From the IMG/VR virus record IMGVR_UViG_3300030104_000822, positions 1 through 33,542 of that record: a DNA stretch of 33,542 bases. The stretch is one strand, 5' to 3'. The first letter of the stretch is position 1. Every line of letters starts with the position of its first letter. The notes under the pieces were generated by a model, which searched no databases, had not been told where the DNA came from, and worked only from the letters and a program-made list of their open reading frames with translations. Below are positions 5,163-33,542 of the stretch, piece after piece. Position numbers and translations under genes: made by a program. Source of the DNA: a virus.

Positions 5163-5581
5163 AGCCAAAGACAGAAGATAGAAAGAAGTTTGACCTGGAT
5201 TTACAGTATGGTCAAGTAAGAGAAAAGATTGTGGCCGACATGCTACAAGATAAAAAAATAGAAGTAAAGTCTGAAAGAGGTATGTGGTTACAGACAGGTA
5301 ACATAGCTATAGAATATGAAAGCTATGGTAAACCTAGTGGTATTAATGCTACTAACTCAGACTATTGGTTTCATAATTTATGTGTGGGAGATGAAGTGTT
5401 TGGCACATTAGTGTTTGAAACAAAGATGTTAAAGAAAATTATTAATGCATCTATTAATAATAACCAGGTTAGGAGTGTATCTGGTGGAGACCATAACGCA
5501 TCTAGAATGTATTTACTAAATATACAGAATCTTTTTTCTCAAAATATAATTAAAAATTCAACAGGAGATGTCAATGACTAA
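5144..5581 (+). CDS. PD-(D/E)XK nuclease-like protein (possible endonuclease)
   Basis: A 145-residue protein with Shine-Dalgarno AGGAG before ATG 5144, overlapping the polymerase end by 19 nt. The core is QVREKIVADMLQ, KKIEVKSERGMW, GNIAIEYESYGKPSGI and NSDYWFHNL. The E-x-K of IEVKSE, with a following hydrophobic strand carrying IEYE, fits the catalytic pattern of the restriction-endonuclease-like superfamily. T7-type phages carry an endonuclease I of this superfamily for Holliday junctions near the polymerase, so a resolvase or host-DNA nuclease role is plausible. It is not recognisably T7 gp3. The catalytic aspartate before IEVKSE is not certain. Confidence 0.55.
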   Translation: MGRNSLEPKTEDRKKFDLDLQYGQVREKIVADMLQDKKIEVKSERGMWLQTGNIAIEYESYGKPSGINATNSDYWFHNLCVGDEVFGTLVFETKMLKKIINASINNNQVRSVSGGDHNASRMYLLNIQNLFSQNIIKNSTGDVND

Positions 5582-6182
5582 AGAGACATGGAAACAAATT
5601 ATATATCCAATTTTTTTTAGAGGTTATGAAATAAGTAACGAAGGTAATATAAGAACTAATTGGAAAAAACATGCTAATCAATATAAAAGAGAACAACAAG
5701 AAACTTGGAGAGAACACAAAACATTTAAATATCATAAAGGAAAAAAAACTACAAGTCCTAATAAAAAGTATGTGCAGACAAGATTGAATATTAATAATGA
5801 TGAATTAGAAAAACAAACAGACCATAATTATTATAAGAAACACAAAAATACAACCACTAGGAGTTTAGATGTTCATAGATTAGTTGCACTACATCACATA
5901 GAACTTAAACCAAGTAATCTAAAAGGTTTAAATATGACAGATGAAGAATGGAAAAATGTTCCTAACGTATTAAAAGATTTTGTAAGAGAATGTATAATAG
6001 TTAATCATAAAGATAATAATGGTTTAAATAATAACGTTAGTAATTTAGAATTTTGTACTCAAAAATATAATACTCAACATTATTATAGAGAACATTTTAC
6101 AGAAGAAAAAAGAGAAGAGAGTAGAAAAAAAACATTAGAAGGATTAAAAAGAAAAAAAGTATTGACAGTAAATAATTTTTAA
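5574..6182 (+). CDS. NUMOD4/HNH free-standing homing endonuclease
   Basis: A 202-residue protein. The N-terminus has a NUMOD4-type element (GYEISNEGNIRTN), the middle DVHRLVALHHI, and the HNH core IIVNHKDNNGLNNNVSNLEF followed by CTQKYNTQH. In this family, VNHxDxNxxNNxxxNLE supplies the metal-binding and catalytic histidine and asparagines. Such enzymes cut a specific site in related genomes and spread their own gene. ATG 5574 is chosen because AGGAG lies 6 nt upstream; ATG 5568 is too close to it. The gene is more AT- and lysine-rich than its neighbours, consistent with recent insertion, and carries the -35 box of the next promoter in its 3' end. Confidence 0.85.
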   Translation: MTKETWKQIIYPIFFRGYEISNEGNIRTNWKKHANQYKREQQETWREHKTFKYHKGKKTTSPNKKYVQTRLNINNDELEKQTDHNYYKKHKNTTTRSLDVHRLVALHHIELKPSNLKGLNMTDEEWKNVPNVLKDFVRECIIVNHKDNNGLNNNVSNLEFCTQKYNTQHYYREHFTEEKREESRKKTLEGLKRKKVLTVNNF

Positions 6183-6190
6183 TATACAAT
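6162..6190 (+). promoter_or_regulatory. Sigma70-type promoter for the ssDNA-binding protein gene
   Basis: TTGACA (6162-6167), a 17-bp spacer, then TACAAT (6185-6190). The -35 is perfect and the -10 has one mismatch. Transcription would start near 6197, giving a leader of about 26 nt that carries the AAAGGAG ribosome site of the gene at 6223. The -35 box lies in the last codons of the HNH gene, so this promoter lets the DNA-binding protein be made independently of the upstream operon. Confidence 0.65.
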
Positions 6191-6222: not shown

Positions 6223-6681
6223 ATGAGTGTAATAAGTGGAACTGCTTACTGGGCGAGCATACAAAGCCCAAACACAAAGTTTGAACCAAGCTGGCAAATA
6301 GATGTTGGTAATCTAGATGATGCTAACAAAGCTATTGCAGAGAGTGATGGTCTCAATATAAAGACTGATGAGACTAAAGGAGATTATGTTACCATCAAAA
6401 GAAAAGTTAAGAGAAAAGATGGTAATGATAATACTCCACCTGTAGTAGTTGATGCACAGAAAAGACCTATGATGGATTTAGTAGGTAATGGTTCTAAAGT
6501 TAATGTACTATACACAACGTATGAGTGGAAGTACGCAGGTAAGGAAGGAATATCCGCAGACCTAAAAAAGATTCAGGTTGTTGATTTAATTCCTTACGAA
6601 GAGAGAGAAGACTTTGATGTTGTCTCTGATGGTTACGCATCTGCAGAAGCAGGTGGTGAAAAAATTCCTTTTGCCTCTTAA
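6223..6681 (+). CDS. Single-stranded DNA-binding protein (T7 gp2.5-type candidate)
   Basis: A 152-residue protein with a strong ribosome site (AAAGGAG) and its own promoter. It opens MSVISGTAYWASI and contains MDLVGNGSKVNVLYTTYEW and KKIQVVDLIPYEE, which fit the beta-strand pattern of an OB-fold phage ssDNA-binding protein. The C-terminal third is acidic (EEREDFDVVSD) and phenylalanine is the third-last residue, like the acidic tails of gp2.5-type proteins that contact polymerase and helicase. The place between polymerase and exonuclease fits. Assignment rests on pattern and context, not on a diagnostic catalytic motif. Confidence 0.65.
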   Translation: MSVISGTAYWASIQSPNTKFEPSWQIDVGNLDDANKAIAESDGLNIKTDETKGDYVTIKRKVKRKDGNDNTPPVVVDAQKRPMMDLVGNGSKVNVLYTTYEWKYAGKEGISADLKKIQVVDLIPYEEREDFDVVSDGYASAEAGGEKIPFAS

Positions 6682-6690
6682 TAAGGAATA

Positions 6691-6740
6691 GTGGGAGTTC
6701 CGGCTAAAACCTCCATCCGGTAATCAGCGAGGTCTCCCAC
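6691..6740 (+). ncRNA. GC-rich pseudoknot-like RNA element in the exonuclease leader
   Basis: This 50-nt island is far richer in G and C than its surroundings. Outer stem: GTGGGAG (6691-6697) with CTCCCAC (6734-6740). Inside, CCGG (6700-6703) can pair with CCGG (6717-6720), and ACCTC (6709-6713) with GAGGT (6729-6733). The order a-b-a'-b' makes an H-type pseudoknot enclosed by a 7-bp stem, and b' runs directly into the outer 3' strand. There is no T-run, so it is not an intrinsic terminator. It ends 8 nt before the next ATG, which has no normally spaced Shine-Dalgarno. A cis-regulatory RNA controlling the exonuclease is the likeliest reading; I recognise no named class. Confidence 0.5.
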
Positions 6741-6748
6741 AACACATC

Positions 6749-7600
6749 ATGAAAAAAATAGAAACATTAGTAGAAGATATCTACAACTTATTTGAAAAGA
6801 AGAATGAAAACTTAACAGAAAAAGAAGTAGATAAATGTATAGATAATTTTGCTAAGTCTGTTAAAGTTCATGTAAAAGATTTTTTAAAACAAAGACCTGA
6901 AGAAAAACCTAGGTTGAGATTATCAACAATAGGTAGACCTGATAGACAGTTGTGGTATGATTTTAAAAAGCCACATAATAAACCTTTAGCACCAAGCACT
7001 AGAATTAAATTTCTTTATGGTTATATATTAGAAGAGTTATTAATTATGTTGTCTTCTATTGCCGGTCATAAAGTAACACAACAACAAAAGCAAGTACAGG
7101 TTGAAGGAATAAAGGGACACCAAGATTGTTTTATTGATGGAGTATTAGTAGATTGTAAGAGTGCATCTGGTATAGGTTATAGTAAATTTAAATATAATAA
7201 CTTATCTAGTGATGACCCTTTTGGTTATATACCTCAAATATCTGCATATGCTGAAGGCAATGGTGTAGAAGAGGCCGGCTTTCTAGTTATTAATAAATCA
7301 ACAGGAGAAATATGTTATACAAAAGTACATTCATTGGAGATGATAAATGCAGGAGATAGAATACAAAAAATTAAAAAAGTTGTTAAATCAAATGCACCAC
7401 CAAGTAGATGTTATCCTGCGATTCCTGATGGAAAATCTGGTAACTTTAGGCTCAATACTCCTTGTGTTTATTGCAATTATAAGTTTGATTGCTGGAGTGA
7501 TTCTAATGATGGTAAAGGACTTCGTTCTTTTAAGTATTCAACTGGGCAAAGATATTTCACACATGTTGAGAAAGAGCCTAATGTAGAAGAGATAAAGTGA
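6749..7600 (+). CDS. Cas4/RecB-like PD-(D/E)XK exonuclease
   Basis: A 283-residue nuclease. Motifs in order: a helix with YILEELLIML, the core GHQDCFIDGVLVDCKSASG (catalytic D, then D-x-K), and the helix YIPQISAYAEG (QxxxY motif), all typical of the RecB/Cas4 nuclease family. The C-terminal part has CVYCNYKFDC, a C-x2-C-x5-C cluster spaced as in Cas4, where with a fourth cysteine it holds an iron-sulfur cluster; the fourth ligand here is not certain. T7-type phages use a 5'-3' exonuclease (gp6) for recombination and host DNA breakdown, and this is the likely counterpart. The start follows the pseudoknot-like element; the stop overlaps the next GTG (GTGA). Confidence 0.8.
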   Translation: MKKIETLVEDIYNLFEKKNENLTEKEVDKCIDNFAKSVKVHVKDFLKQRPEEKPRLRLSTIGRPDRQLWYDFKKPHNKPLAPSTRIKFLYGYILEELLIMLSSIAGHKVTQQQKQVQVEGIKGHQDCFIDGVLVDCKSASGIGYSKFKYNNLSSDDPFGYIPQISAYAEGNGVEEAGFLVINKSTGEICYTKVHSLEMINAGDRIQKIKKVVKSNAPPSRCYPAIPDGKSGNFRLNTPCVYCNYKFDCWSDSNDGKGLRSFKYSTGQRYFTHVEKEPNVEEIK

Positions 7601-31972: not shown

Positions 31973-33542
31973 TATGCGTATGCCTGTGAAATTACCATTT
32001 GTATATCTCCACCAACTCCATCACTAGATGCAGATACTACAATATAATCTAATCTATCTACTGCACCATTTGCTGTTGATAAGGTTGGGTCTGTACCACC
32101 AATAAATTTAAAATCTGCGTTATAAGCCATTGTACCACTTCCTCCACTTTGTGTCAAGAAAATACTTCCTGTTTGTCCTGTTCTACATCCTGTGGGTTTA
32201 GCTAGTGTATGTGCTGCTGTAACTGTTGTACTAAAGTTTTGTGCATTACCAAAGTTTAATGATACTGAAGCTACACCATTAATAGCTGTTGCACAAACAA
32301 CTGCTGCTGCACTTTTTGTTAATTGTAATTGTCCTTCTAATGAAGTATTACCTGATACTCTTACTGTTCCTAAGAAACCTGTATTACCTGTGACTGTTGT
32401 AGCACCTGTTACTTTTAACGTGCCTACTAATTGTGAATTACCTGATACACAAACATCTCCATCAAACTCTGCTTTACCACCTACTGTTAATGTACCACCT
32501 ACAGATGTATTACCACCTATAGTTGCAGTTCCACCTATATTTAAATTGCCAGATACAGATGCATTACCTGCTACATCTAATGTACTTCCAAGAGATACAG
32601 CACCTGTTATAGTTGTTGTTCCACCTATTGCAACATTACCACTAACTGATACATCATCTTCAAATTCAGCTTTACCTGTAATATTAGATGTACCACCTAT
32701 AGAAACATTACCAGCTATTGTAGCTGTTCCTCCTATAAAAGCATTGCCTGATATACAAACGTCATTATCAAACTCTACTTTATCGCCAAAAGTTTTATTT
32801 GTAAATGTTTGTGTTGCTGCTAATCCTGCTAATGTATCTGCAGATGCAGGCATTACTAAAGATATATTTCCAGAAAAATCTGCGTGTGCAGGTGCTTTTA
32901 ATGCAGCATAATGAGCATTTGCTGATTCACAATACATTCTAAGTTCAGAACGTGAACCTGTATTTTTTAAATCAATAATACCACCACCAACACTTACAGT
33001 TCCTTTAATAGTAGCACTACCACTTACAGAAACATCATCTTCAAATTCTGCTTTACCTGTTGCTAAAAATGTACCTCCTATTGAAGTATTACCTGTTACA
33101 TCTAAAGTAGAACCTAATGATACTGCTCCGGCTATTGTAGTATGACCTCCAATATTCATATCACCAGATACTGATACATCACCATCAAATGTTGCATTAC
33201 CAGTTATAACTGCAGTTCCGCCTAATGAAGTATTACCTGCTACATCTAAAGTACCACCTATTGTAGTATTACCAGAAACTCTTGCTGTTGTTAAAAATCC
33301 TGCAGCTCCTGATACAGTAACTGTGCTTATAAAATTAGCTGCACCACCTACACTTAATGTTCCTCCTATTGATGCGTTGCCTACAATAGTAGCTGTGCCA
33401 CCTATAACTGCATTACTTGCGACACTTAATGTGCTTTGTAAATGTGCAGCTCCTACAACTGTAGTAGTACCACTTACATATAAATTACCACCTATAGTAG
33501 CATTTGAAACTGATATATTACCTTGAACAACAGCAGTAATAT
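31972..33542 (-). CDS. Repeat-rich tail fibre protein (5' end outside the window)
   Basis: The frame is open from 31972 to the right edge, at least 522 residues; the in-frame ATG at 33159 is internal, because no stop occurs upstream of it. Most of the protein is a degenerate repeat of the form [VA]-[ST]-G-N-x-x-[IV]-G-G-T-x-x-[IV], with recurring AEFEDDVSVSG and LDVTGN. Short Gly/Ser/Thr turns with alternating hydrophobics predict a triple-stranded beta-helical fibre shaft. The last 110 residues (TGQTGSIFLTQSGGSGTMAY, then LSTANGAVDRLDYIVVSASS) match the end of the fibre at 27417-28337. Role: a long tail fibre or its shaft. Confidence 0.75.
   Translation of the reverse strand, partial: ITAVVQGNISVSNATIGGNLYVSGTTTVVGAAHLQSTLSVASNAVIGGTATIVGNASIGGTLSVGGAANFISTVTVSGAAGFLTTARVSGNTTIGGTLDVAGNTSLGGTAVITGNATFDGDVSVSGDMNIGGHTTIAGAVSLGSTLDVTGNTSIGGTFLATGKAEFEDDVSVSGSATIKGTVSVGGGIIDLKNTGSRSELRMYCESANAHYAALKAPAHADFSGNISLVMPASADTLAGLAATQTFTNKTFGDKVEFDNDVCISGNAFIGGTATIAGNVSIGGTSNITGKAEFEDDVSVSGNVAIGGTTTITGAVSLGSTLDVAGNASVSGNLNIGGTATIGGNTSVGGTLTVGGKAEFDGDVCVSGNSQLVGTLKVTGATTVTGNTGFLGTVRVSGNTSLEGQLQLTKSAAAVVCATAINGVASVSLNFGNAQNFSTTVTAAHTLAKPTGCRTGQTGSIFLTQSGGSGTMAYNADFKFIGGTDPTLSTANGAVDRLDYIVVSASSDGVGGDIQMVISQAYA

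Follow-up and report, generated by a model that had tools for sequence, protein, structure and literature searches.

A conserved pseudoknot RNA that alternates with plain hairpins in replication-gene operons of uncultured phages

The window analyzed here, a 33,542-nt stretch of viral DNA, carries a 50-nt element on its plus strand (positions 6691–6740) between the genes of a single-stranded DNA-binding protein (SSB) and an exonuclease. The element folds as an H-type pseudoknot enclosed by a stem and almost certainly belongs to a real RNA family. The family covaries strongly, is new to Rfam, and is found in many uncultured phages, where it sits in operons of replication genes. On balance, we regard the element as the pseudoknot allele of an exchangeable intercistronic mRNA structure, which probably protects the end of the upstream message and, at the window junction, bridges a ribosome-binding site. 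The observation behind this work, made in a preliminary description of the same DNA, was confirmed and proved stronger than first claimed.

All parts of the element lie on the plus strand. The outer stem P0 is formed by GTGGGAG (6691–6697) and CTCCCAC (6734–6740). Inside it, a UU linker (6698–6699) leads to the inner stem P1, in which CCG (6700–6702) pairs with CGG (6718–6720), while in P2 the strand ACCTC (6709–6713) pairs with GAGGT (6729–6733), which abuts the 3′ arm of P0 with no gap. Between these strands lie the conserved segments GCWAAA (loop 1, 6703–6708), CAUN (6714–6717), and UAAYCAGC (loop 3, 6721–6728). The stem P0 is free in sequence, and the loops of the pseudoknot (P1 of 3 bp, P2 of 5 bp) are near-invariant. 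As originally described, the element forms a G+C-rich island in AT-rich DNA, with a G+C content of 0.54 in the bin 6700–6749 against mostly 0.2–0.45 nearby. Folding of the strand without the pseudoknot gave −19.9 kcal/mol compared to −13.2 kcal/mol for shuffled sequences (z −2.4, 3/200 shuffles). Three complementary pairs had been proposed; the 7-bp outer stem and the 5-bp P2 were upheld, and the inner stem was shortened from 4 to 3 bp. A fourth P1 pair (6703/6717) was not supported, because all four bases occur in column 28 of the alignment opposite a constant G. A small conserved open reading frame starting at the GTG of the stem was also rejected, as its frame and stop differ between contexts.

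Scanning of viral contigs with the core pattern revealed 50 stretches in two contexts, the SSB–exonuclease junction and the gp32-type SSB–UvsX junction of T4-like phages, and relaxed patterns returned many further members. The family consensus is [stem]AG-UU-[xyG]-GCWAAA-[AYNNN]-CAUN-[Cy'x']-UAAYCAGC-[N'N'N'RU]-CU[stem']. In the relaxed pattern, P1 and P2 were free except for one G and the final C, and pairing was not imposed. All 44 distinct 52-mers recovered with this free-stem pattern formed the three stems (P1 at 3/3 pairs, P2 at 5/5, and the outer stem with 4 bp or more), as expected for the pseudoknot inside an outer stem that had been proposed. Two-sided changes were found at 13 of the 16 pairs of alignment A1, including seven of eight outer pairs and four of five pairs of P2, the latter being 100% paired. 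P1 occurred as CCG/CGG, ACG/CGT, CTG/CAG, GCG/CGC, and CAG/CTG, and the 3′ arm of P0 was supported both by covariation and by intact outer pairs in the hairpin alleles described below. The covariation score was 0.668, compared to 0.190 ± 0.014 after shuffling, a value reached by none of 500 shuffles; slid-register controls scored 0.07–0.15, and 97.3% of paired cells in the alignment could pair versus 72.3% in shuffled alignments. Loop conservation is partly a product of the search patterns, which set UAA and AGC in loop 3 and partly the G, C, and AAA of loop 1, and the family may extend beyond them. The C at position 36 in loop 3 was left free and was still invariant in alignment A1. The linker read TT in 44/44 sequences, its letters being set by the search pattern, and was also retained among members from another relaxed scan.

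The element matched no Rfam 15 family at the gathering score, and no relevant match lay on it at E values up to 5–10. Covariation analysis and comparison with Rfam were among the checks suggested in the preliminary description, and both outcomes agree with its proposal of a new structured RNA outside the known classes. The pattern scans covered viral contigs. The element had no match in 399 genomes of one bacterial phylum. Comparison with cultured phages by blastn yielded partial matches alone (E ≥ 0.6) for three short queries and no match for one 3.4-kb query of the flank.

Each of 20 records contained one copy by pattern, and with a covariance model the true matches scored at least 62 bits and nothing else rose above about 21. 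A dispersed repeat is ruled out by this single copy per genome. The genes upstream of the element fell into 21 unrelated clusters, among them a Gp2.5-like SSB, a gp32-like SSB, a DnaB-like helicase, a CobS-like AAA ATPase (assigned to a porphyrin-biosynthesis PHROG, with a von-Willebrand-like protein encoded after it), and many unknowns. All upstream genes identified lay on the strand of the element, placing the element in sense orientation. The upstream stop codon was at most 21 nt away in 15 of the 21 clusters (−2 to 21 nt), and in the other six no open reading frame ended shortly before the element. The distance to the downstream gene ranged from 0 to >600 nt. Two loci had a tRNA gene directly 3′ of the element, within about 30 nt: tRNA-Trp (L187, 3758–3831, minus strand), starting about 10 nt past it, and tRNA-Leu (L233, 5210–5294, minus strand), starting about 30 nt past it. 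Proximity to the stop codon, together with the variable downstream distance, is as expected for an element at a message end and not for a leader of the gene that follows. Neither this placement nor the CobS-like, DnaB-like, and unknown genes of the other contexts agrees with a riboswitch or operator serving the exonuclease alone, as first suggested.

From this placement, we give about an even chance that a message-end structure is the function shared by all contexts. The element would mark and protect the upstream coding unit at its 3′ end in the transcript as a barrier to 3′–5′ decay, and such protection would favor an abundant upstream product such as the SSB. In contexts where a U-rich tail follows, it may act as a terminator in addition.

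The Gp2.5-like SSB gene (6223–6681, plus strand, 152 aa; PHROG 112, E = 1.2e-9) ends with the codons for IPFAS and a stop, and the Cas4-like exonuclease gene (6749–7600, plus strand, 283 aa; PHROG 1990, E = 5.2e-46) begins 8 nt after the element, as stated in the preliminary description. An HNH endonuclease gene (5568–6182) lies just 5′ of the SSB gene; it is inserted in some relatives, and most are without it. We rejected the junction as a homing-endonuclease target, since the HNH gene accompanies cassette types A, B, D, and G (see below) and is missing with the others, and is thus unlinked to cassette type. A promoter-like site, TTGACA-17-TACAAT (6162–6190, plus strand, 11/12 matches), lies within the final part of the HNH gene, 5′ of the SSB gene; promoter-like matches totaled 15 versus 13.2 in shuffled sequence, which is not above chance. 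At the far end of the window, the minus-strand structural region 32446–33514 contains degenerate repeats with 18- and 36-nt spacing and is likely a tail or fibre gene.

The exonuclease had been described as lacking a normally spaced Shine–Dalgarno (SD) sequence. This is correct for the 8-nt spacer 3′ of the hairpin (6741–6748), which holds none; an AAGGA lies on the 5′ side of the hairpin (6683–6687, plus strand). AAGGA was present in all 27 distinct SSB–exonuclease junctions, 1–4 nt past the SSB stop and 2–3 nt ahead of the hairpin. Its linear distance to the ATG was 43–61 nt in these junctions. When the hairpin was looped out, the distance became 11 nt in 23 junctions and 10 nt in four, composed as 3+8, 2+9, or 2+8 nt on the two sides of the hairpin, a constancy that is partly due to common descent, with two main flank types. 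At the window junction, the folded hairpin would place AAGGA 11 nt ahead of the exonuclease ATG. The bridge is specific to the SSB–exonuclease junction, since UvsX genes carry a normal SD 3′ of the hairpin. These spacings make it likely that the exonuclease is translated from a split, hairpin-bridged ribosome-binding site in the window. In addition, ATTCCTT (6664–6670, plus strand), within the IPF codons of the SSB gene, is complementary to the SD region (6683–6689), and this complementarity was kept in relatives in two registers (AAGGAAT or AAAAGGA) in each junction variant examined. Judged from sequence, a hairpin between them could sequester the SD and be opened by ribosomes finishing the SSB gene, a possible means of translational coupling of the two genes.

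We further examined the variation of the junction. An exonuclease-based scan gave 60 loci, and the junction was inspected in 56. Every one of these contained a hairpin with identical outer stem ends, and the interior was one of several cassettes: type A is the pseudoknot, and types B–G are plain hairpins. The seven outer pairs were unbroken among 17 distinct hairpin alleles of this junction. The window and locus L003 differ by 1 nt per 200-nt flank, and the window has the pseudoknot whereas L003 has a plain hairpin. Likewise, the pairs L048/L046, L022/L024, and L019/L017 differ in their hairpins, with each 200-nt flank at most 1 nt apart, and in L025/L026, L011/L010, L048/L046, and L019/L017 the swap falls exactly inside the stem. 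A scan for the loops of types B and D gave real matches confined to the SSB–exonuclease junction; others resembled chance matches in coding sequence. On an exonuclease tree of 51 loci, cassette type changed at least 20 times, compared to 30 ± 1.7 in shuffled data, indicating clustered types, while pseudoknot presence changed 13 times, compared to 12.3 ± 1.1, that is, at random; these counts are approximate, as many forks are unresolved and recombination within the gene is possible. Near-identical phages with swapped alleles represent natural isogenic pairs of pseudoknot and plain hairpin.

At the gp32–UvsX junction, nearly all relatives had a strong hairpin, which was plain, a pseudoknot, or one of further conserved types. 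The 160-kb T4-like phage record L085 carries at this junction a copy identical to that of the window at 49 of 50 positions, with unrelated flanks. A second class of structured hairpin was seen there directly past the gp32 stop, approximately CGGCUCGGGCCUCU..inner stem..UACGCCCGAGUU, at loci L304, L312, L267, L270, L293, L306, L322, L324, L325, L328, L331, and L334–L336. Its inner and outer stems seem to change together, and it is sporadic on the gp32 tree; the members L304, L322, and L334 had no match in Rfam. A third type past the gp32 stop, in L257 and L323, has a CCCCCC..GGGGGG stem and a partly common interior.

A plain hairpin would suffice as a barrier or a bridge, and the conserved loops therefore imply something beyond the message-end and bridge explanation. 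It is possible, although we hold this tentatively, that the conserved pseudoknot has an activity of its own, as an accessory RNA (a decoy of a host protein, a ribozyme, or a ligand sensor) that moves as a 40–50-nt cassette among unrelated phages, with intercistronic hairpins as its landing sites. The sporadic occurrence of the pseudoknot may point to mobile RNA modules of very small size that are common to unrelated phages.

Among specific activities, a counter-defence RNA appears unlikely. In this reading, the core would sit at a hairpin site where it is tolerated and act as a decoy of a host protein, for example by mimicking a type III antitoxin that targets a ToxN-like RNase. The random presence of the pseudoknot on the exonuclease tree, where hairpin types are clustered, resembles a sporadic accessory; near-invariant loops on covarying stems and the occurrence of the element in unrelated phages are also consistent with a decoy, and ToxI mimicry has a precedent in phage PhiTE, which evades ToxIN through expression of a ToxI-like RNA (PMC5772629). 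However, the element occurs as one copy and not as a tandem array, matches nothing in Rfam at E values as high as 10, and as a decoy would have no need for tight placement after a stop codon.

Slightly less probable is an operator bound by a protein, such as autoregulation by the SSB encoded upstream in the manner of T4 gp32, or a ligand-binding riboswitch. SSB genes are the most frequent upstream neighbors; they precede the element in its two commonest contexts and come from unrelated families, Gp2.5-like in one and gp32-like in the other. T4 gp32 itself binds a pseudoknot in its leader (PMC3014915). Nonetheless, the element is found after CobS-like and DnaB-like genes and ahead of tRNAs as well, and it is placed by the upstream stop and not by the downstream start. 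Many relatives, including close ones, retain both flanking genes and have a plain hairpin instead of the pseudoknot, an outcome that the preliminary description had named as counting against its proposal. Of the SSB-bound operator suggested there, the recurrence beside two unrelated SSB gene types stands; in view of the other contexts it cannot be the general function of the element, and it may still apply at SSB loci.

We consider it improbable that the structure is simply an intrinsic transcription terminator with an incidental pseudoknot loop. U-rich tails follow the element in the CobS, gp32, and L208/L229 contexts, but there is no U-tract at the window junction (0 terminator-like sites) or in L181, L197, L200, L175, and L232, and the conserved core would be left unexplained. 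Least probable is a small self-cleaving ribozyme separating the units of a polycistronic transcript: its size, free-sequence enclosing stem, pseudoknot, about 20 near-invariant positions, and location between coding units and ahead of tRNAs would fit, but it is interchangeable with plain hairpins that are themselves incapable of self-cleavage, matches no Rfam ribozyme model, and has no recognizable cleavage site. Permuted HDV-like or pistol ribozymes were rejected, as their knot-in-stem topology fits and their conserved catalytic positions do not.

T4-type phages carry PeSLs, stem-loop cassettes that sit between genes and are mobile. The exchangeable structure described here resembles them as intergenic stem-loops traded among related phages, and differs in that the cassette has no promoter and its interior can be a conserved pseudoknot common to unrelated phages. 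With ToxI and its phage mimics, the element shares a small H-type pseudoknot, ToxI units being pseudoknots with a 36-nt core, and phage-borne RNA mimicry is established (PMC5772629). Unlike type III antitoxins, which form a tandem array beside a ToxN-like RNase gene, it is a single copy within a hairpin, without repeat array or Rfam match and with no toxin gene seen, and its neighbors are SSB, exonuclease, UvsX, and other genes. The T4 gene 32 mRNA likewise has an H-type pseudoknot in a phage transcript containing an SSB gene; that pseudoknot lies 5′ of the gene 32 start, whereas the element is stem-enclosed, lies 3′ of SSB genes, and also follows unrelated genes. The closest parallel to the bridge is the split site of T4 gene 25 (the 26–25 junction) and gene 38, in which SD and AUG are brought effectively closer by an intervening hairpin, in gene 25 from 27 to 11 nt (PMC3014915), a value comparable to the 10–11 nt found here. 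The T4 bridge is a plain stem, whereas here a pseudoknot from a conserved family can form the bridge, and the alleles that replace one another are 32–50 nt long. Since the looped-out spacing is constant, bridging of ribosome sites by hairpins, which is known for a few T4 genes, appears to be stable in another group of phages.
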